From positions 1-24,194 of IMG/VR virus record IMGVR_UViG_3300025120_000534: a stretch of 24,194 nt of DNA. The stretch is one strand, 5' to 3'. How positions within the stretch are numbered: the stretch's first letter is position 1; the number at the start of each line of letters is the position of its first letter. The notes under the pieces are model-generated. The model worked only from the letters and a program-made list of their open reading frames with translations, did not search any database and had not been told where the DNA came from. The position numbers and the translations under genes were made by a program. Origin of the DNA: a virus. Of the stretch, positions 2,622-19,175 are shown piece by piece.

Positions 2622-4628
2622 TTAAGGACACACTGTTTTCTCAACTACCTGCCCTACACCATCTATTCTTATGATGTTGTTCTTACCACCTGTCAACTCA
2701 TCGGTGATGTAATACTTGTACCCACCATTATAAGCAACCTGCCTTCCATTTACAAATGTATAAATAAAATCGTTTAGTGCTGGATACGTCCCCTTACCAC
2801 TGTGATACATTTGAGCGTATGATGGTGTTACACCACAAGCTAAAGTACTTGTTACCTGTGGATTTGAGATATCCATATTATATCTTATGAGAGTGATCAC
2901 TGGATTTATAATTAAATTTATAGTGGTATTTACACTAGTTCCAAAGCAATTAGTAGCCGTTACTACTACTGAATATGTTCCAGGAGTGCTTGAGTTACCA
3001 GAGAAAGAACCAGTGTTTTCATTAAAAAATATACCAAGTGGCAGTATCTCATCACTACAAACACCTTTAGATGTTATTGTCCCATTACCACTCACTAACA
3101 CTGGGGTAGATGAAGAACAAATTTCTAAAGAACTACCAGACATGACCGTAACACTTTTAGTTATTCCTGTTGTGCAGTCTACCACAGTAAATGTAGAGCC
3201 AGAATCCCCTGATGTTAATGAGTAATTATTACACGCTGAAACAAGAGAGTAATACTCTGGGTTATTAGTAGTTATTAAATCAAACCCTATTCTTTGGTTT
3301 GGCTCAAAAGTAAAACTCGTGCTACTTATAACTGGCACTGCTGTTTCAGAGCAAGGGCTACAGTCTCCAGTATCAACTACTAAACCAGTGGCTGTAATAA
3401 GCGCATAGTTATTTGTAGATATTTTAAAATACTGATCATTACCATCAAATGCAATTGTTCCAGAAGTATTAGTATATATATTATCCCCAACCTCTGGCAA
3501 TGCGTTAATCCCAGTGTGATAAGCAGTATCTGTTGCGGTATCTGAACAAACACTAGCTAAAGTTGTTCCTGTGTTTTCAATAAGAAAAGACGTTAATGTA
3601 GTAGCGTTTGGGGTAATCTCCCAGCCGTCATCACTAGCACCTGTTAAAACTTGTAAGTCGTATATACTATTAGAAGAACCTCTAGTACCTTTAAGAAAAC
3701 TAATAGTACCCGCACCCGTTACCGAGCCACTATTAAATAATTCTACATCGTTTAGTTTTAGTATAAATGTTTTGCTAGTAGTATTAGCATCGTAACCAAT
3801 TGTTGCACGACCTATTCTATTTGAAAAGTTTATTTTAACGTTTATTGTAGCACCATTAGATGATCCAGATGGAACTATAGCTGTATTTCCATTAGCGGTT
3901 AATTGACTCTGGTAGTCATAGAATAAATATAGGTAAGACTTAGATGCTCTGGTATACGTAAACTGCGATGTGTAAACATCACCAGCTAATGTTGCTGTAG
4001 GAACAGTAGCCTTAGTTAGTCCACTCTGAAAATCCGCTGAATCATTAGGATCATATACAGTATCCGTTATTAAATACCCCATTGTATTACCTAGTTCTGG
4101 TATAAATGGTTGAACAGTAGCACTACCTATTCTGTTAGCTTTCAAGTCAACAGTATCCCCATCAACAGGTATAGATTCTAACCCTTCATAATCAGAAAAA
4201 ACTACAAACTCAGACGGTTGACCAGAGGTTATAATTGTGTCTGTAAATTCTATATCCGAACCTGTTGTATTACTTGTAAAGTCATATTTTTGTGTAGCTA
4301 TTTTACCTGCATCGTAATTGCTTGCATTTACTGCAAATACTCTATTTACCAGTGTGCTCTTTGATTGAAATAAGGTAAACACTTGTGCTGTGTCTGACGT
4401 TACAGTAACCTGAACAGTTCTATTTGCTCCTGTAGAGTTTAATAAAAAAGTAATCTTTACATCTTCATCACCCGACCCTTGGTATGTGCCTGTACCCAAA
4501 ACAACATCGTTTATTTTAACAATACTAACACCATCACCTAAATCTTGCAGGGTAACAGTCCACGTAGAGTTAGACCTTACATTAAGATTGTTTGAAGATT
4601 CTGTAGATGGAAAGTTTATTTGAGCCAT
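2622..4628 (-). CDS. Multidomain surface/adhesin-like protein (BACON-like, Ig-like and Cys modules)
   Basis: A 668-aa beta-rich Ser/Thr/Asn-rich protein with no signal peptide, as expected for a virion protein. Residues about 1-90 look like a BACON domain: a SNSTWTV strand, a G-rich turn, then the NRTVQVTVTSD strand and a closing FTLFQSKS. Residues 361-423 and 598-667 are two copies of a Cys-bounded module with the pattern Y-H-[TS]-G...LP/YP...D-x-IYT...YfkI/YYIT...Cys. Residues 436-463 and 528-575 form an Ig-like domain of the He_PIG type (LPLGIFFNENTGSFSG, then TYSVVVTATNCFG), interrupted by a Cys module at 466-524. BACON domains are often linked to carbohydrate or mucin binding, so a host-surface adhesin role is reasonable. 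It starts 2 bases after the stabilization gene and is probably translated from the same message. Confidence 0.88.
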   Translation of the reverse strand: MAQINFPSTESSNNLNVRSNSTWTVTLQDLGDGVSIVKINDVVLGTGTYQGSGDEDVKITFLLNSTGANRTVQVTVTSDTAQVFTLFQSKSTLVNRVFAVNASNYDAGKIATQKYDFTSNTTGSDIEFTDTIITSGQPSEFVVFSDYEGLESIPVDGDTVDLKANRIGSATVQPFIPELGNTMGYLITDTVYDPNDSADFQSGLTKATVPTATLAGDVYTSQFTYTRASKSYLYLFYDYQSQLTANGNTAIVPSGSSNGATINVKINFSNRIGRATIGYDANTTSKTFILKLNDVELFNSGSVTGAGTISFLKGTRGSSNSIYDLQVLTGASDDGWEITPNATTLTSFLIENTGTTLASVCSDTATDTAYHTGINALPEVGDNIYTNTSGTIAFDGNDQYFKISTNNYALITATGLVVDTGDCSPCSETAVPVISSTSFTFEPNQRIGFDLITTNNPEYYSLVSACNNYSLTSGDSGSTFTVVDCTTGITKSVTVMSGSSLEICSSSTPVLVSGNGTITSKGVCSDEILPLGIFFNENTGSFSGNSSTPGTYSVVVTATNCFGTSVNTTINLIINPVITLIRYNMDISNPQVTSTLACGVTPSYAQMYHSGKGTYPALNDFIYTFVNGRQVAYNGGYKYYITDELTGGKNNIIRIDGVGQVVEKTVCP

Positions 4629-4630
4629 TA

Positions 4631-7600
4631 TTATGTTCTTGTGTATGTTATGTTTGTTATTGTAGGGAAAGCAATGTCTCTAGATGATAATACATACCTA
4701 CCTTTAAATGGATCAATACCACCTAGTTTTCTTTTACCTGGGTAGTCTCTAAATAAGTCCTTAAACCAATCAGCCATACCAAATGATGATATTTCAAATA
4801 TACCATTACCAGATAATCTACAAACCGCCCCTCTAAACTCGTCAGTAAAGTACATATTATTACCCCACTGAGCAAAACTTTCTGGGTTTTTACTAATCCC
4901 GTACTGTCCAGAGAATGATATCTGAGTACCTAGCACTTCTGGTATACTAGCTATAGACCCACCACCAACAGCGTCTGATAGTAGATTTTTACCGTATAAT
5001 ATCTTAGATACCTTATCTTCCTGGAATACTACTAGGTCTGTATCTCTTGACTTTATTTTTTGTATAGAACCAAAAGACTTGTCTAGATATTTAAAGTTAG
5101 ATAGAGATAAATTAAACTCATTTAAGTTGTTTATACCACTGGTCTCTCTGTATACACCACTATAAGTTAACGCCTCCTCTACTCTTTCCTCAGCGTAGTC
5201 TTCATAGGTGGAGTTAGCCCTAGGGCTATATTTTAAATGCCTACCATTCCAGTCGTCCCTTATTACCATTGACTCAACACCATTACCAAAACTATAAGCA
5301 TTAAAGTTTGAGTTAAAGTCATAGTAATTTAATCTAACTATTGCTGGTGCATTTAATGTTTGATCTGCTGCTCCAGTACCTCCACTTCCTCCGTGTAGTT
5401 TGAAATTACCAGAAGTGTTTATGTCGTATGTTCTTCTTGTTTCGTAAAACACATCCTCTAAATTTTCCTTACCCTCTGTTTCAAACACATTTAACCCAGT
5501 CTGCATTATCACCTCCATTTCAGCATGCATATAATTAAGTTTGCTTACATCGTCTGTTACACTGGTTGTCATTATAAACATATACACTGGTCTCCCAGCA
5601 AGGATAGTAGATCTATTTGCGTTATTGTAAGCATCATTGTTTTGTGATATATAATTTACTTTTACATCATCCCCTCCACCTCCAGCTCGATTTCTTCTAT
5701 TGTAACCTCTTCTGAAGTACACATTACTAGTACCGCTATCCTCAGATTCACTATTAAATTGCTTAAATGTTCTATGTGCTCCACTTTCCCAAAACCACTC
5801 CTGTATATTAACATATCTTCTTGGAGATACCCATTCTTGCCATCCTTGCCAAGAACCTTCTCCAAATTTTTCTTCTTCTTTTAACCTAATTCTAATTCTT
5901 GATCCAGATTCAATAGGTCTATCTACTGTGCTAATTCCGCCTGGTTGAGGATAAGTAATTTGAGTACTATTTATTGTGGGGCTCCAAGAATCACCTGGAA
6001 GAATAGCGTTTGATCCACTCAAAGATACTGTTGAAGATTCTGTTGAAGTGGATACTACTCCTATTCCTGAGAAAGTTAGACCCTCAGATGGTAAAATATT
6101 TATAATCCAATAATCCCCTTTGGTATAACCACTAGAATGTAAAAACTGAAATTTACAAGCGAATGCTGTTCCTAAAGACCCACCAGCCATAGATCGTACA
6201 GAAACCTCCCTGTTTGCTGGAATTTGAATAGATTGAGAGTTAAGTCCATGTCTCTCATAGGTTGATCCGTTAAAGTAGTATATGCTAAAATGATCAGTGC
6301 TGTCCATATATATTCTGAACCTTTGGTATTCTTGAGTCTCTAGCGAGTTTACCATTTTATAGTTAGAAAAACCACTTCCAGCTAAGTTTAATATAGTTAG
6401 CCTAGCGTGATCATCTGTTCTACTTCCGTAATAAACAGGCTCGTCTATATTTCCTACAAAAACTCCAGCGTTACTGTATGATCCAGGTATTTCTACGCTA
6501 TAAGCAAAACCTACAGTTTCAAAATTAAACTCTTCAATATCAGATCCGTCAAATAGGATTGCGTTATCATTTTTAATTTTAAAATACAAACCTCCTAACT
6601 CGTTGTTACCTAAAAAATCTTTATTTTGAACACCTATTTCAATAACCTTATATTTTTCTAATGTCTCTATTGCAACATCATTATTGGTTTTAGCTACAAT
6701 GTAATCACCCTCTTTTATTTTATCTACATCACTTTGACTTATCCTAAACCACCTGTATACTCCATCAACATAGTAGTATAACGGAAATATATTATAGTAT
6801 AATCCTGTGTTCTGTTTAATAAATAGTCTATACTTGCTTGCAAAAGAAGGTGCTGTGTGGTCAATTTTTACTACTAAATCATTAGCATTCTTAGATGATG
6901 ATATAGGTATGTGTGTAGTGCCGTCAGAGCTATTTAATTCTTGATTAGTAAACACAGTAGTCATTCTACCATAATCATCTAAATAAGATATACCAACCTC
7001 ATAATCTCTATTACTCTTAAATGTGAGTTCAGGAAAAACAGAAGATAATGGTTGATCATAATCCAACCCAAGTTTTATTTGCCTGTTTATATTGAAAAAT
7101 TGTGTGTAGTTACCGTATATTAATCTACTACCTATAATATCTTGCGCTTTAGCTTTTAATGGTACGTTATCAAATAGTCTTGTTACCTCATCTGGCGGCA
7201 GAACAGAAAATATTTTATTATTGGTAAATGTTACTTCTTTACTTTGATTATCTCCCCACCCTTGATTTACCTTATTAAATCTTTCAATTATAAACACTGT
7301 ATTATCTAACGTATCTCTAAACAATAACTGAACCTCTTCTACTTGACTCAAGCCCGTGTTAAACGTAATATTTACCTGGTTAAATTTATTAACCATTGAT
7401 GTGAACTCCGCATCGGCATAGTTGTACTCAAAGTTTTCAGGAAAAAAAGCAGTAGCTGAAAAAGGAGACATTGCGCTATATTCGTCATTCTCATACTTAT
7501 ACCTATATGAAAACTGAAGAAACTTGTCCTCAATATTATTAGGTGAACTACCATTATCAAGCTCTACATCTGATAAGGCTATGAGCGGAGCGTTAAGTGG

Positions 7601-8101: not shown

Positions 8102-9027
8102 TTAATCCATTTATCACGCCCTCTTAATGGCATAAGAAGTCTACCTGCGTGTATATTACTTAATCTAATCTTAGTGTTTCTTAACTTAGCCATCTTATCT
8201 TTATTGGCTCTTCGTATCACATACTCTTGAGCACTTATTCTATTCTCTAATATAGACGCTTTTATGTAAGCATACAAGTAACCCTCGGCTAATTTATTAA
8301 TACTAACAGACTCATCATCTCCATTTTCCATCCCATCTGACACATATTCTATTACTATACACTCATCCTTTACACCTGAGCTAAAGTTAATTACTCCAGA
8401 CTTTTTATCTATTCTAAAGTTGTCATTGATATTAGCCTTAGATGTTTCTAATCCGTAAAAAGCACCGCCTACCCCATATCTAAAAAACCATTCGCCATCA
8501 ACATTCCATCCCCATTGACCGTATCTTGCTCCTTCACCTAAAAATTGAGACTGGGGTAGACCATTCAATCTATTTCTATCTAACTGAGAATTCTCAGCCT
8601 CTAATACTTCCCCGTCTTGATCAAATAAGAAATCACAATTATTGTCTCTTAAGTATTCAGACGCATAGTTAATACTTTGGTTTTCGTGTAGTGGGAATAA
8701 TATACCATCTTTTTCAACAGATATCCTAACATAGTTAACATAGTCTGGTGGTAGTATCATTTTTAAGTTATCGCACTCAGCCATGCAAAACTCTAATACC
8801 TTTATGTTTCTAAGAGCATCATAGGTTATTTCTTGAATACCTCTCTTAGCGTGAAACAATACAGTGTATCTATTTACCTTACCTATAGTACTATCATCAT
8901 CAGCATACATCAACATAAAATTGTTAACAATATCCTTTAATGGTACATACTGATAGCTTCCCCAGTTTGCGTCTGTTGGAACATTTCCACTATTATTGTA
9001 ATATTGATAGTTAGTTAGATAAGCCAT
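8098..9027 (-). CDS. Head-tail connector / tail ring-type structural protein
   Basis: A 309-aa soluble protein located between the 260-aa connector-type protein and the stabilization protein. The N-terminal region includes YVPLKDIVNNFMLMYADDDS and NRYTVLFHAKRGIQEITYDA, followed by LKMILPPDYVNYVRISVEKDG. This block is familiar from virion proteins of marine flavobacterial phages. Position and size fit a ring or tail-tube protein under the portal. No enzymatic motif is visible. It overlaps the upstream gene by one base (TAATG) and the stabilization gene by four, so three proteins are made from a tightly coupled message. The exact ring position is inference; a structure-based comparison with Crassvirales ring proteins would settle it. 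Confidence 0.9.
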   Translation of the reverse strand: MAYLTNYQYYNNSGNVPTDANWGSYQYVPLKDIVNNFMLMYADDDSTIGKVNRYTVLFHAKRGIQEITYDALRNIKVLEFCMAECDNLKMILPPDYVNYVRISVEKDGILFPLHENQSINYASEYLRDNNCDFLFDQDGEVLEAENSQLDRNRLNGLPQSQFLGEGARYGQWGWNVDGEWFFRYGVGGAFYGLETSKANINDNFRIDKKSGVINFSSGVKDECIVIEYVSDGMENGDDESVSINKLAEGYLYAYIKASILENRISAQEYVIRRANKDKMAKLRNTKIRLSNIHAGRLLMPLRGRDKWIK

Positions 9028-9809
9028 TATGATTCACTTTGATTATTAATTGCCTCTGCACCTGAAGCAAACTGAACTACTTCTGGTTCTCTTATATTAA
9101 CACCAGCATACTGTAATATTTTTAACGTCATCTCTACTTGATCAGAAAACGGCAACTCAAAGTCTTGATAGTCAGTAGCAGATTGATTAAATATAGGAGA
9201 TCCTGACACTACATTGTATGTCCACTTTGGATCCTTTGGGTATCTTACATATGTTAAGTCACAACCTAGTGTGCATGTAGCTGCCTGTGCTGGGTATAGT
9301 GTTATTTGGTTTCCTAAATTTCCATACGTTCCAGTCCCTGGTCCTTCAGTCACTCCTAGTCCTTGCTGAGAAAAAACATAGGCTGGGTATTGCTTAGATG
9401 GTGAGGTAAGGTTAGATGATAGTAATCTATTTATTTGACCCTCACTTATTCTTTCTGCTTCATTACTTGTTACAACAGCTCCACACGTTTGTTTAAAATT
9501 CACATAAGTAATCGTATACCAGTCTGCTGGTAACTCAAATGTTTGTTCACTACCTGTAGATAGTGTTAGTGCCTTGAACTGCGTAAACGTATCTATAACC
9601 TCTACCAACTGCCTAGGTAGGTCAGCATACCCCGTATTAGTTAGTCTTTTATTTTGCTTGTTTAATAAGTTATTATAATTGTAGAAGTACTCCTCAAATA
9701 TTTCTAACTGTGCTTGTTTAGCAAATAGGTTAAACTCTTCTGGAGTAAGATAACCATTGTTATCCTTATTAAGGACAGCCATGACAGTATTTCTTACCGT
9801 ATTAATCAT
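9027..9809 (-). CDS. Connector / tail-tube-like structural protein with an EF-hand-like N-terminal loop
   Basis: A 260-aa protein. The N-terminus reads VLNKDNNGYLTPEEFNLFAK, then QLEIFEEYFYNYNNLLNKQN, a combination I know from short-tail connector proteins of Bacteroidetes phages. Residues 14-25 have the spacing of an EF-hand calcium loop with Asn in place of the first Asp. The middle (ELPADWYTITYVNF and ITLYPAQ...LTYVRYPKDPKW) is beta-rich, as in gp4/tail-tubular-A-like adaptors. The C-terminal helix (FSDQVEMTLKILQYAGVNI) is typical of such adaptors. It is the first gene of the tail operon, preceded by a terminator (9835-9868) and its own promoter element (9826-9833) with a 16-base leader. 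Confident as a structural gene, less so for the exact connector position. Confidence 0.9.
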   Translation of the reverse strand: MINTVRNTVMAVLNKDNNGYLTPEEFNLFAKQAQLEIFEEYFYNYNNLLNKQNKRLTNTGYADLPRQLVEVIDTFTQFKALTLSTGSEQTFELPADWYTITYVNFKQTCGAVVTSNEAERISEGQINRLLSSNLTSPSKQYPAYVFSQQGLGVTEGPGTGTYGNLGNQITLYPAQAATCTLGCDLTYVRYPKDPKWTYNVVSGSPIFNQSATDYQDFELPFSDQVEMTLKILQYAGVNIREPEVVQFASGAEAINNQSES

Positions 9810-9825
9810 CTAAAAATGTTTGATA

Positions 9826-9833
9826 CAAAGATA
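9826..9833 (-). promoter_or_regulatory. Bacteroidetes-type -7 promoter element (TATCTTTG), tail operon
   Basis: An exact TAnnTTTG match 16 bases before the ATG of the 260-aa connector gene, directly downstream of a terminator. A GTG at the -33 distance lies in the 3' arm of that hairpin. It is likely the main promoter for the tail operon, which otherwise would be cut off by the terminator. Confidence 0.6.
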
Positions 9834-9836
9834 ATG

Positions 9837-9868
9837 AAAAAAAAGAGAGACACGCTATTTTAAGCGTG
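9837..9868 (-). terminator. Rho-independent terminator after the 101-aa gene
   Basis: On the minus strand, stem CACGCT, loop TAAAAT, stem AGCGTG, then TCTCTC and eight T residues. The 5' arm contains the last two codons and the loop starts with the stop codon of the 101-aa gene. The next promoter element follows within a few bases. Confidence 0.75.
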
Positions 9869-10165
9869 ATCAACACTAGTTATGTTTACAGGAGAATCTA
9901 CATTCCTAACTGTACCACTCTGACCTAGTATAGATGAAGCGGCAACTACCGCCATCATTATAGCTGTAGCAACTGAGTCTTGAGCAGTATCCGCTACGTG
10001 AGTCACATTAAGTTGATCATCACTTCCTTGAGCACCTATAGCTGCTGTTATTATATGTGTAGATGTAGAAGAATGTCTAACAGCGGTTATTATTTGATTT
10101 GTTTGTACTATTACGTTATAGTTTCCAGCACCATCAGTAATTGGTATAGAGATAAAATTATTCAT
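9860..10165 (-). CDS. 101-aa Ala/Thr-rich protein of unknown function, own transcription unit
   Basis: A 101-aa protein: residues 1-75 are beta/alternating (FISIPITDGAGNYNVIVQTN), followed by an Ala-rich hydrophobic stretch at about 62-82 (SVATAIMMAVVAASSILGQ) that could be an amphipathic helix or weak membrane segment. I do not recognise the family; a small capsid- or tail-associated protein is plausible from its place between capsid and connector genes. It is bracketed by regulatory signals. A promoter element ends only 4 bases before its ATG, and a terminator hairpin begins inside its stop codon, so it appears to be expressed as a single-gene message that may be leaderless. That arrangement suggests a need for separate, probably high, expression. 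Confidence 0.8.
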   Translation of the reverse strand: MNNFISIPITDGAGNYNVIVQTNQIITAVRHSSTSTHIITAAIGAQGSDDQLNVTHVADTAQDSVATAIMMAVVAASSILGQSGTVRNVDSPVNITSVDHA

Positions 10166-10169
10166 AATA

Positions 10170-10199
10170 CAAAGATAGAAAAAAAAGAGAGGGCCTCAA
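10170..10199 (-). promoter_or_regulatory. Full Bacteroidetes promoter TTG-N19-TATCTTTG, overlapping a terminator
   Basis: On the minus strand TTG (10199-10197) is followed after 19 bases by TATCTTTG (10177-10170), an exact match to the TTG-N17-23-TAnnTTTG consensus. The ATG of the 101-aa gene comes only 4 bases later, so the message may be leaderless. The TTG is in the loop of the terminator hairpin 10187-10206 and the spacer is its T-run. Confidence 0.65.
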
Positions 10200-10206
10200 C
10201 CCTCTC
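10179..10206 (-). terminator. Rho-independent terminator after the 246-aa gene, fused to a promoter
   Basis: On the minus strand, stem GAGAGGG, loop TTGAGG, stem CCCTCTC, then eight T residues with no gap. The loop supplies the -33 TTG and the T-run forms the spacer of the promoter for the next gene. Confidence 0.85.
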
Positions 10207-10247: not shown

Positions 10248-10255
10248 CAAATATA
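10248..10255 (-). promoter_or_regulatory. Bacteroidetes-type -7 promoter element (TATATTTG) with no adjacent gene
   Basis: An exact TAnnTTTG match 5 bases after the stop of the 246-aa gene. Transcription from here would meet the terminator at 10179-10206 after about 40-65 nt, without an ATG-started ORF in between. The nearest -33 candidate is TTA, so it is weaker than the next element. Confidence 0.45.
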
Positions 10256-10260
10256 GTAAA

Positions 10261-11001
10261 TTAATTTACTTTTTTCTCTAACATCTTCATAATTTCTACA
10301 CCCTCATCAGACTGCAAGAATGCTGATACAGCAGAAGCTGGAGTCTCATCAAATGGTACGGTAATCATTTTCTTCTTGTTATTCTTCAAGTTAAAGAACA
10401 CATCTCTGTCTCCATTTCTTAGTGTAAGAATCTTGGAATCTAATGCCTTCTTTGCTAAACCTTGTAGCCTAACCATAGGATCGTCAACCATTTCTAAAAA
10501 CTCTACGGGGTTTTGTCTAGCGTATAATCTAACATCTCTTCTTAATTCAGAGCTTGTTAACTTATCTACAGTAGAACCCATTAGTAGTCTAGCTATGTTT
10601 TCAATCATATCTATTTCTAATTCTTTAGCAGCTATTTCTGCATCTAGTTGACTATCTAAACTAGCAACCTCTTTACTAGCATCTTTCTCTGTGTTTACCT
10701 CTTCGTATATTTTATTTATACCAGGGTGTAAGTTTAGAAATTTTTGTAGTACTGGATTATTTTTTGGAACACTTAAGAAACCATCCTCAAACACTATTGG
10801 TTCTAAAATAGCATTGTCATCTTGCTCATCCTCAAAAGGACTCTTCTGGTTTCTTGCATAACGAAGTGGTCTATTAACTCCCATATCTTCGTCAAAATAT
10901 AATAATGGTGCTCTTTTTGTGTTTCTTGAGTTTAACATATAACTCAAAGGGGTTGTTTGAGATTTCAATACATATACCCTATCTTTTAATTCTGTTTTCA
11001 T
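10261..11001 (-). CDS. 246-aa helical structural-region protein, function unknown
   Basis: A 246-aa charged protein between the capsid gene and the connectors. Key stretches are TPLSYMLNSRNTKRAPLLYF, RPLRYARNQKSPFEDEQDDN and ILEPIVFEDGFLSVPKNNPV in the first half. These look strongly conserved in type and recur, as I recall, in marine Bacteroidetes phages. Residues 115-175 are helical with acidic/Leu repeats, and the C-terminus (SAFLQSDEGVEIMKMLEKKV) is helical. It is probably a head-associated or connector protein, but I know no function. It is followed by a strong terminator (10179-10206). Upstream lies the capsid terminator with no clear TAnnTTTG promoter after it, so expression may rely on read-through from the capsid message. 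Confidence 0.87.
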   Translation of the reverse strand: MKTELKDRVYVLKSQTTPLSYMLNSRNTKRAPLLYFDEDMGVNRPLRYARNQKSPFEDEQDDNAILEPIVFEDGFLSVPKNNPVLQKFLNLHPGINKIYEEVNTEKDASKEVASLDSQLDAEIAAKELEIDMIENIARLLMGSTVDKLTSSELRRDVRLYARQNPVEFLEMVDDPMVRLQGLAKKALDSKILTLRNGDRDVFFNLKNNKKKMITVPFDETPASAVSAFLQSDEGVEIMKMLEKKVN

Positions 11002-11024: not shown

Positions 11025-11054
11025 AAAAAAAAAAGAGGAGGGAATTAACCCTCC
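11025..11054 (-). terminator. Rho-independent terminator after the capsid gene
   Basis: On the minus strand, stem GGAGGG, loop TTAATT, stem CCCTCC, then TC and ten T residues. It begins 17 bases after the capsid stop codon. The strong G/C stem plus long T-run make it a convincing terminator. Confidence 0.85.
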
Positions 11055-11071
11055 CCTAGTAATTGTTATTC

Positions 11072-12472
11072 TTAATCCTTAAAGATAAAGAAGTTATTAG
11101 CACCTAAAGTACAAAGAGCTCTTTCTGATAAGAAATTAACTTCCATTGCATCTAAGTCACTTGTTGCAGCTCCGCCAGCGGAACCAGTCATCCAAGTCTT
11201 ATATCTTCTATCTTCAGTTTCTGACGCTCTATATCTTACGTGTAAGAATGGTCTCTTAGCATTTCTACCCATTACTTGATCGTAAACATTAGTTGAACCT
11301 GCTGGTACTAATACACCATTTACAGCTCCACCAACTATACCACCTCTTAATGTAGCATCGTTAAGATATTTCCAGTCAGTCTTATAGAACTCATATCCTC
11401 TTTTGAATCCTGAGAATCCAAGGTTAAGTGCCATTTCTTCGTCATTGTCAAACAATCCGTAAGAAGTACCACCAGCTCCGTAAGAATTTTGAGCAGCTAA
11501 CATATCGTCGATATCAAAACCGAACTCTCTGTTAACGAACATTACATTCTCTTGGATAGCACCTTGCTTATCTAATCTCTGGATAATAGCATCAAAGTCA
11601 GCTAAAGCAGCTGGGTTTCCACCAGACCAAACGTTACCGTTGTTCTCAATTTCGTGGAATAAACCTTTTGTACCTTGATTACCTAATTGTCCACCAGCAG
11701 CTAAAGCAGCAACACCTGAACCAGCAGCAGCTGGAACACCTTCAATCATTGCCATTTCAAGATAATCATCAAAACGTAATCTTGTTTCGTGCTCTGATTT
11801 AATGTACCATAAGTATCCTGACGCTCCGTTTTCTGACGTTACCTCTACCCATCCGATTTGAGCCATATCTGAACCAGATACAACATACTTATCTTTTATG
11901 ATAATTGGCTTATTGTCTTTGATTACTGGATCAGCCTCTAAAGAACCACTCATTCCGTTAGCTCCTTTATTGAACTCTGAACCATATACATAAACAATAA
12001 TGTTTGCAGAAGCATTCATACCTACAGCTTGACCAGCTGCCTCGTAGTAAGCTACGTCTACTGAGTTAGTAGCAACAGCTGTAACGATAGCTTTATTGCT
12101 AGCAGTAGAAGCAGCAGTACCATCAGACACAAAAATAGTTTGACCTACTCTTAAATTATGTCCAGTGATAGCTAAAGTAGCCGCATCTTGAGCATCAGCA
12201 GTAGCTGTAGTTACTCCCTCGAACTTTGTATGTAATCTACCTTGCTCTTCCCATTTGATAAGGTCAGAGTTAGTAGGCATTTCTGCACCAACCATTCTCA
12301 AGAAAGCACTGATAGATCTGTTTCCATATCTTTCAAACTCTTTCTCGTAAGTGTCTGGTAAGTATTGATTTAAAAAATCAAAATTTGTAATATAATTTGA
12401 AGGCAATGCTGCCTTACTTGACGACGGTGTTAACGCTGGTTGTCCAGCGGCACCTGTTATTGAACCTGCCAT
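11072..12472 (-). CDS. Major capsid protein
   Basis: A 466-aa protein in the expected slot after portal and scaffold genes and richer in Ala/Gly and G+C than its neighbours, as is common for a highly expressed coat protein. Typical stretches are YITNFDFLNQYLPDTYEKEF, SAFLRMVGAEMPTNSDLIKW, KSEHETRLRFDDYLEMAMIE, NVMFVNREFGFDIDDMLAA and, near the C-terminus, RPFLHVRYRASETEDRR and NFLSERALCTLGANNFFIF. I associate these with capsid proteins of flavobacterial podoviruses and crAss-like relatives (HK97-type fold expected). Residues about 88-161 form a Thr/Ala/Val-rich beta segment that looks like an inserted small domain. A strong terminator follows the gene (11025-11054). The 18-base leader is A-rich with no Shine-Dalgarno sequence. 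It shares a message with the scaffold-like gene. Confidence 0.93.
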   Translation of the reverse strand: MAGSITGAAGQPALTPSSSKAALPSNYITNFDFLNQYLPDTYEKEFERYGNRSISAFLRMVGAEMPTNSDLIKWEEQGRLHTKFEGVTTATADAQDAATLAITGHNLRVGQTIFVSDGTAASTASNKAIVTAVATNSVDVAYYEAAGQAVGMNASANIIVYVYGSEFNKGANGMSGSLEADPVIKDNKPIIIKDKYVVSGSDMAQIGWVEVTSENGASGYLWYIKSEHETRLRFDDYLEMAMIEGVPAAAGSGVAALAAGGQLGNQGTKGLFHEIENNGNVWSGGNPAALADFDAIIQRLDKQGAIQENVMFVNREFGFDIDDMLAAQNSYGAGGTSYGLFDNDEEMALNLGFSGFKRGYEFYKTDWKYLNDATLRGGIVGGAVNGVLVPAGSTNVYDQVMGRNAKRPFLHVRYRASETEDRRYKTWMTGSAGGAATSDLDAMEVNFLSERALCTLGANNFFIFKD

Positions 12473-13670: not shown

Positions 13671-13678
13671 CAAAATTA
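13671..13678 (-). promoter_or_regulatory. Bacteroidetes-type -7 promoter element (TAATTTTG), scaffold and capsid
   Basis: An exact TAnnTTTG match in the 53-base gap after the portal gene, 25 bases before the scaffold ATG, with a strongly A/T-rich surround. It would let the scaffold and capsid genes be expressed above the packaging genes. The -33 box is weak (TTA). Confidence 0.55.
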
Positions 13679-18366: not shown

Positions 18367-18616
18367 ATGATTTATTCTTACCTTCCTTTTCAGGCTCTTC
18401 GTTAAGTAAGGCTCTTTCAGCCTCTATCCTGTTTAATATTTCAAACGCATCGAATATAGCTAGTTTCTTAGTAGCCGCTGCATTTTTTAATCTATCTGCT
18501 GCTAATTCATCCTCAGGATCAGGCTTTATTATCTCCTCCTTAGCAACCTTTACCAATTGCTTCACAGCCATTTCACCAGCCTTAATAATGTCTTCTTTAA
18601 TTTGTTTAGTTGTCAT
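18338..18616 (-). CDS. Small helical protein before TerL, putative small terminase subunit
   Basis: A 92-aa almost entirely helical protein: an N-terminal helix (IIKAGEMAVKQLVKVAKEEI), an acidic turn (KPDPEDELAADRLKNAAATK), a second helix (KLAIFDAFEILNRIEAERA) and a charged C-terminal tail. It lies between the Cpn10-like gene (11-base overlap) and the large terminase (29-base overlap). Many tailed phages encode their DNA-recognising small terminase subunit just before the large one, so that is the best functional guess. I see no clear helix-turn-helix, so this is inference from size, helicity and position, not from a recognised family. Confidence 0.85.
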   Translation of the reverse strand: MTTKQIKEDIIKAGEMAVKQLVKVAKEEIIKPDPEDELAADRLKNAAATKKLAIFDAFEILNRIEAERALLNEEPEKEGKNKSFGFAERRSK

Positions 18617-19175
18617 ATGATATACAGATGTTTCTTGTAAACATCCTATATAATTTATCTCCCTCTATATCAAACTCGTACTCACTCTCTGGTTGAAAAC
18701 TTATTACATCCCCAACCTTTAAACCCTTAGATGTTAATTCTTTATTAATATACTTAATTTTTCCCAATAAGTTTTGATATACATTATTATTTATTAAACC
18801 AGTTTCTTCCTTTAGTATAGGCTCTACAAAACAATATGGATCTGGAGCTGTCCATTTATCGTCTCTTTTATATAGGAAAAACTGTTCATTATCTATAACA
18901 TATAAATCATCCATAAAAAAAGAAGGACCGCTTTTCTCACGACCCTTCATATCATAATACTTCCTAAATACATTGTGATGAACAATTAATATATCACCCT
19001 TCTTAATATCTCCCTTATATACCACGGGAGTTTCTACCACTACAGCATACCTATTGGTAGCGGTATGATCTTCCTGAGAGGAGCTAACTATTACATCTAC
19101 ACCACCTATCTCTTTAGTGTGTTTATACCTAGTACCGCCTAGTGGTTTAATTAAGAAATGAAAAGGAGATCTCAT
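18606..19175 (-). CDS. Two-copy GroES/Cpn10-like protein (putative viral co-chaperonin)
   Basis: A 189-aa protein. The C-terminal half (about 114-189) follows the Cpn10 pattern: CFVEPILKEE, then LLGKIKYINKELTSKGLKVG, DVISFQPESEYEFDIEGDKL and YRMFTRNICISYD. This mirrors the GroES strand order of an R-V-[VI]-[VK] start, a G-x-V-x-x-V strand, VKVGD-hh-F, then a strand carrying the residue equivalent to the DILA segment. The N-terminal half (about 3-108) repeats the order: FHFLIKP, TNRYAVVVETPVVYKGDIKK, GDILIVHHNVF, then DNEQFFLYKRDD. Both halves therefore look like one Cpn10 fold each. Phage co-chaperonins such as T4 gp31 help the host GroEL fold coat proteins, and this gene precedes the packaging and capsid genes. 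Family assignment is by eye. It overlaps the next gene by 11 bases. Confidence 0.88.
   Translation of the reverse strand: MRSPFHFLIKPLGGTRYKHTKEIGGVDVIVSSSQEDHTATNRYAVVVETPVVYKGDIKKGDILIVHHNVFRKYYDMKGREKSGPSFFMDDLYVIDNEQFFLYKRDDKWTAPDPYCFVEPILKEETGLINNNVYQNLLGKIKYINKELTSKGLKVGDVISFQPESEYEFDIEGDKLYRMFTRNICISYDN

Follow-up and report, generated by a model that had tools for sequence, protein, structure and literature searches.

The promoter consensus of the Bacteroidetes, from which the original prediction for the locus treated here started, is TTG-N17-23-TAnnTTTG. Class I intrinsic terminators consist of a G+C-rich hairpin followed directly by 6-11 T. In the sigma-ABfr promoters of Bacteroidota, the −7 box TAnnTTTG is combined with an AT-rich −18 region (PMC6847099) and lies 4-5 nt from +1, a spacing reported in both PMC9723704 and PMC6847099; for F. 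johnsoniae promoters the latter describes two AT-rich motifs, at −18 and −28, with little signal near −33. In T7-like phages (T7, LUZ100) a terminator of the late module is located behind the capsid gene (PMC10134795). Termination and initiation are brought together in facilitated reinitiation after recycling termination, for which PMC6978380 and PMC11347151 describe post-termination retention, one-dimensional diffusion and reinitiation of E. coli RNA polymerase in vitro; the terminators of T7, T3 and SP6 have a start site at distances between 14 and 1742 bp.

The locus compared with these systems belongs to an IMG/VR virus record, 24,194 bases long and used in full (hereafter the window). Its late structural genes (TerL, portal, 384-aa, capsid-like, 246-aa, 101-aa, and the 260-aa and 309-aa virion proteins) are found on the minus strand, and the late module is arranged in the order MCP, terminator, 246-aa gene, fused joint, zero to four members of one small-protein family, fused joint and 260-aa gene. 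The first joint (minus strand, 10206-10170) is composed of a 7-bp hairpin, T8, a C and the box TATCTTTG; TATT (4 nt) and the ATG at 10165 follow. The features, with their basis in brackets, are:

13671..13678, minus strand: unfused promoter-like box TAATTTTG in front of the 384-aa gene, itself followed by the capsid gene (motif scan; class comparison)
11072..12472, minus strand: major capsid-like virion protein gene, phrog_13704 (PHROGs)
11034..11057, minus strand: strong predicted terminator behind the major capsid gene, with no −7 box, an unfused internal control (folding; junction comparison)
10261..11001, minus strand: 246-aa gene upstream of the joint (ORF list)
10200..10206, minus strand: 5′ arm of the terminator hairpin, GAGAGGG (sequence; fold)
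10197..10199, minus strand: TTG in the hairpin loop, the −33 element of the original prediction, judged a chance match (N19 spacing exact, not conserved)
10187..10193, minus strand: 3′ arm of the terminator hairpin, CCCTCTC (sequence; fold)
10179..10186, minus strand: T8 run, putatively both U-tract and, at about −22 to −15, AT-rich −18 part of the promoter (sequence; position statistics; motif in PMC6847099)
10178, minus strand: C between T8 and box (sequence)
10170..10177, minus strand: −7 box TATCTTTG (present in 6/6 homologous sites)
10163..10165, minus strand: ATG, its A being the predicted +1 of a leaderless message (4 nt past the box; N-terminus conserved in the family)
9860..10165, minus strand: 101-aa small-protein gene, whose family occurs here in 0-4 copies in relatives (ORF; family comparison)
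9851..9868, minus strand: weaker, non-conserved hairpin of the second joint, overlapping the 101-aa stop codon (−9.7 kcal/mol)
9826..9844, minus strand: T-run and −7 box of the second joint, T8-CAT-TATCTTTG, upstream of the 260-aa gene (sequence; relatives)
9027..9809, minus strand: gene of the 260-aa virion structural protein, phrog_14543, behind the second joint (PHROGs)

The original prediction had described the first joint as a terminator and a promoter fused into one element, and all that it described is present base for base, including the exact TTG-N19-TATCTTTG spacing. As an intrinsic terminator, the stretch 10206-10179 shows a stable hairpin directly before a T-run of more than the six T required (T8), and the RNA fold of 10214-10179 reaches −20 kcal/mol (z −2.87), a value equalled by 1/200 shuffles. 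As a sigma-ABfr promoter it shows the conserved TAnnTTTG and the AT-rich −18 region, whereas the TTG at −33, though present in the window, is not conserved (see below). Taken by itself, the −7 motif is no more frequent in the window than expected by chance (29 TAnnTTTG seen, 29.5 expected), and on this strand of the window 8.9% of all positions are preceded by a TTG at N17-23. Among the 20 T6+ runs of the transcribed strand four have a hairpin, and TAnnTTTG follows two of these four; this proportion, together with a recurrence in relatives far above that of decoy motifs (see below), argues that the joint is more than a coincidence. A further box, TATATTTG, is located at 10248-10255 (minus strand), just past the stop of the 246-aa gene, and the stretch from there to the hairpin is conserved in four of the homologous loci (L001, L003, L005 and L006); a transcript from this box would end at the T-run at 10179 after ~60 nt, so that a short RNA is possible. 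A hairpin with T7 is also seen at 18948-18922 (minus strand), directly 5′ of an internal ATG of the GroES-like gene (18606-19175).

Compared with the described systems, the hairpin and T-run resemble Class I terminators, but the T-run ends 1-4 nt short of the promoter box of the next gene. The box, the AT-rich −18 region (PMC6847099) and the 4-5 nt to +1 are those of sigma-ABfr promoters, whereas the −18 region would here double as a terminator's U-tract, and at group level neither TTG nor TTTG is seen near −33. The capsid terminator of T7 and LUZ100 (PMC10134795) has its match in the unfused capsid junction of the window, the fused joints being two further ones downstream. The short distance between terminator and promoter is shared with facilitated reinitiation, which PMC6978380 and PMC11347151 describe in vitro for E. 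coli polymerase, whereas what is seen here is a geometry, in the form of a recurrent element with shared sequence.

By TerL, the nearest named phages are MW202828 (70%) and Elemovirus of Flavobacterium (45%), followed by Pachyviridae (phi19:3) and Pervagoviridae (phi38:1), both of Cellulophaga, at 37-39%. Membership in the Crassvirales, guessed from PHROG names, was rejected, as TerL identity to crAss-like records is 24% over 42% of the query, against 37-45% to phi38:1 and Elemovirus.

The 101-aa protein is encoded at five further loci with 80-86% identity. All six sites (window and five loci) share T-run, TATCTTTGTATT and ATG across three different hairpins, apart from an extra C between T-run and box in the window, L002 and L004, and the hairpin abuts the T-run in 6/6 (sequences read by eye; folded values for the window, L001, L002 and L003). 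In L001 and L005 the hairpin is unrelated and another gene lies upstream. The TTG at N17-23 is retained only in the window, L002 and L004, which have one hairpin in common, and is lost in 3/6 sites. The alignment of relatives that the original prediction had proposed as a check therefore gives a divided answer: TAnnTTTG is kept, but the TTG spacing, whose loss the prediction had named as one of two observations against it, is lost in half of the homologues and, as shown below, is found no more often than by chance in the class.

A survey of 86 sequences (the best 80 of at least 600 capsid-protein loci, the five 101-aa loci and the window; 759 kb scanned) was based on hairpins of −6 kcal/mol or better, on TAnnTTTG at a gap of −1 to 4 as the definition of fusion, and on dereplication at 70%. 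Among 139 intergenic T6+ runs, 111 are preceded by a hairpin, and TAnnTTTG is found at the fused gap in 68 of these and within 60 nt in 3 more, with none in 40. After dereplication 39/70 sites are fused, against a median of 0 for 839 permuted decoy motifs; decoys above 11 (up to 36) are all partial matches to the TAnnTTTG motif, and at the 31 unfused dereplicated sites no decoy exceeds 2. Since the hairpin class was set by folding energy, the energy contrast between classes is partly circular. The capsid/246-aa junction has a hairpin at 42/60 dereplicated sites and a −7 box at 4/42 of them; before the 260-aa gene the corresponding numbers are 26/31 and 22/26, and hairpin, T-run and box are seen there in nearly every locus displayed, each with its own hairpin sequence. 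In three high-G+C members (L036, L066 and L080) a box resembling TATCTTTA or TATCTTAG stands 4 nt upstream of the ATG, with a clear hairpin and short T-run in L036; all three were left out of the fused count.

Promoter-like sites numbered 101 after dereplication, namely 48 fused, 8 with a T-run without hairpin and 45 with neither. In the fused sites the distance from T-run to box is 1-4 nt in 47/48 and −1 in one, while the hairpin has a median clearance of 22 nt from the upstream stop, so that compactness alone does not account for the contact between T-run and box. As many as 44 different 3′ arms occur among the 48 fused sites, and the inner stem shows all pair types. Because hairpin sequences differ in this way while hairpin, T-run and box persist, the reading of the joint as an intrinsic terminator fused to a Bacteroidota promoter is well supported by comparison, and we regard it as probably correct. 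The fusion proposed for this locus is thus supported, and conserved, though as one case of a recurrent class rather than as a lone element. Counting against it are the 40 of 111 hairpin sites without a box within 60 nt, and the Pachyviridae relatives, phi14:2, crAss001, phi19:1, FCL-2 and B40-8, in which the joint is absent or occurs at most once per piece.

The TTG proposed as −33 element does not survive the same comparison: at N17-23 it is found in 3/48 fused sites (shuffle mean 4.7), 1/8 T-run-only sites (1.1) and 6/45 sites with neither (5.1), and with the losses among homologues we reject the loop TTG as a promoter element and take it for a chance match. The T-run goes with the hairpin, as 48 sites have both, 8 have the T-run alone and 45 have neither; in these 45 promoters T is not enriched and only 3/45 fold with z<−2, by which a T-run as general promoter element of these phages, though possible for their hosts, is rejected. 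With +1 set as the fifth base after the box, the centre of the T-run has its median at −19 (range −20.5 to −15.5), and one T-run would thus serve as both U-tract and AT-rich −18 promoter region. The distribution of sites differs by gene: 27 with neither, 4 T-run only and 1 fused before the 384-aa gene, 29 fused, 4 T-run only and none with neither before the 260-aa gene, and 15 fused and 10 with neither before the small-protein family. The box TATCTTTG itself is found in 39/48 fused vs 6/45 unfused promoters (Fisher p 2e-11). Among the dereplicated promoters of the 86 sequences, TAACTTTG stands before the 384-aa/capsid unit and TATCTTTG at fused joints; the two boxes perhaps represent two promoter classes or strengths.

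RNA polymerase that has passed the 246-aa gene would form the hairpin and U-tract and release its RNA at the T-run, which would also be the AT-rich middle of a Bacteroidota promoter, with the −7 box one base on, and a new transcript would begin ~13 nt further, at the A of the ATG. From this arrangement we infer termination, initiation, the start at the ATG and a host RNA polymerase that does both. Since the joint would end one late message and start the next, the small virion-associated gene (or pair) would get its own rate. Insulation of the 101-aa gene as a single unit, as originally predicted, is plausible; the second joint (9868-9826), which would close the unit, has a weaker hairpin that is absent from some relatives, with T-run and box kept.

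The message of the 101-aa gene may well be leaderless. The start codon is credible because the N-terminus is alike in 26 homologues, M1 being the one invariant column, and with the box 4 nt from the ATG the predicted +1 coincides with its A. A leaderless start is therefore our best guess for this gene, and one towards which we lean with some reserve. Flavobacterial leaderless mRNAs are comparable, the predicted 5′ end here coinciding with the ATG or lying close to it. They are rare in hosts, with a share of 5.5% in F. psychrophilum (PMC9723704), and in F. johnsoniae 87% of the leaders are longer than 10 nt (PMC6847099), whereas 7/48 fused sites have the box 4-5 nt from the ATG; the distances at fused sites are mainly 4-5, 14-19 and 29-33 nt.

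Zero to four proteins are encoded between the 246-aa and 260-aa genes, and 46/55 of them belong to one family (BLAST linkage at 1e-3), with members of ~91-116 aa (MxKFLSIPV...) in the window (9860-10165), L001, L005, L045 and L055. The 101-aa protein has no Pfam match and a best PHROGs E of 0.0037, to a family of unknown function. Its AlphaFold2 model (pLDDT 84.5) gave no match in the PDB with E<=0.001 and eight among viral proteins at the same threshold, the named ones uncharacterized, which suggests that the small-protein family is related to uncharacterized viral proteins.

The alignments between the window and relatives with additional genes break inside the T-run and box, which suggests that the joint is also a cassette boundary, where near-identical T-run and box would provide a short homology at which single-gene units come or go. 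Against L001, the left half of the joint region corresponds to 3706-4105 and the right half to 4979-5330, with a query overlap of 22 bases made up of T-run and box; the extra DNA at the joint is ~895 bp with two genes in L001 and ~375 bp with one gene in L005, where the break is likewise in the T-run and box. In L001 and L006 the window's hairpin is also found in front of another gene (92 aa), and the varying copy number of the small-protein family between the joints points the same way. Selection would keep such a joint because any recombinant retains a terminator and a promoter. However, of 33 indel pairs 15 have their break in the T-run/box core, which makes up 2.5-5% of the region, and 18 have it elsewhere; the pairs are not independent, 8 of the 15 core breaks belonging to the window's clade. 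We hold the cassette boundary to be nearly as probable as its opposite.

More doubtful is a second extension of the fused reading, in which polymerase stays on the DNA after RNA release and restarts, so that upstream transcription would feed downstream initiation. The predicted 3′ end and +1 are only ~13-16 nt apart, and the retention, diffusion and reinitiation recorded in PMC6978380 and PMC11347151 would provide the steps. By the account of both papers, however, these are established in vitro and not in vivo, and for E. coli rather than Bacteroidota polymerase; a seated terminating polymerase would also block the promoter, and the geometry fits two independent events equally well. We therefore mention this only as a tentative proposal.

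The fused joint is not confined to close relatives of the window. TTTTTTN0-3TANNTTTG is found in 18/20 whole records of relatives, with 54 matches vs 9 for the reversed control (overlaps counted in both). A scan of viral contigs for CTCTTTTTTTNTATCTTTG gave 111 stretches; among the 80 listed there are 26 dereplicated sites, 22 with a hairpin, and 13 of these 22 belong to contigs for which no similarity to proteins of the window was detected. Five phage contigs likewise without such similarity (L227, L241, L260, L289 and L293) have fused joints before a 342-345-aa gene (MCYESLLGL.../MCIESLLGL...). Of named phages, MW202828 and Flavobacterium phage elemoA (6-nt gap) have both joints and Cellulophaga phage phi38:1 one, crAss001 and FCL-2 have one candidate joint each, and the joint is absent from the scanned pieces of phi19:3, Gundel_1, phi14:2, phi19:1 and B40-8. 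In genomes, CTTTTTTTN1-3TATCTTTG has 106 matches vs 2 in the reversed control for Bacteroidaceae (81 genomes) and 14 vs 8 for Flavobacteriaceae (80 genomes), each set containing one genome picked for having a match; a hairpin is present at 9/24 and 3/14 of the sampled sites, respectively. A stricter pattern in genome contigs gave 85 stretches, of which 64 among the 80 listed are Bacteroidota by record titles, with a hairpin at 39/78 sites. In three Bacteroidaceae chromosomes (L352, L353 and L354) hairpin-T7-TATCTTTG with differing hairpins lies ~22 nt before a 492-aa gene.

These genome counts bear on the possibility that the joint is a promoter only, its T-run an AT-rich promoter element and its hairpin incidental or acting on DNA. 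T-run and box without hairpin make up 8/56 of the relatives' sites, 15/24 in Bacteroidaceae and 11/14 in Flavobacteriaceae; the eight T-run promoters and the majority of Bacteroidaceae sites would allow the T-run to be an independent promoter feature, a reading with which the Bacteroidaceae excess over the reversed control and the second joint of the window, which retains T-run and box but not hairpin across relatives, agree. Nevertheless, 48/56 T-run promoters of relatives have the hairpin, hairpins are rebuilt in place with new sequences, and the 45 promoters without T-run are neither enriched in T nor, with few exceptions, folded, which makes this explanation improbable. A terminator followed by a mere chance TAnnTTTG, as the density of the motif in the window would permit, is highly improbable in view of the decoy motifs, the unfused capsid junction, the narrow gap of 1-4 nt and the preference of fused sites for TATCTTTG.

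A literature search found no account of a terminator fused to a promoter in these phages; most subscription journals were outside its scope, and it is thus no proof of absence in print. Each component of the fused terminator and promoter is already known, and the recurrent joint with its shared T-run is the part for which no precedent was found. The widest reading, a compact terminate-and-restart joint at which host polymerase reloads and the same sequence exchanges single-gene virion cassettes, spread over several unrelated phage groups and sparsely over Bacteroidaceae chromosomes, is one we offer with considerable doubt. If the fused joint is true, it would supply some dozens of natural elements of diverse sequence in which transcription ends and starts ~13-16 nt apart, with which polymerase recycling would become testable in living cells. 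Bacteroidota genetics would gain minimal insulated parts, and promoter prediction for these hosts and phages would do well not to demand a −33 TTG. In this family of Bacteroidota viruses, short structural genes would be separately switched units that can apparently be gained or lost at the joint.
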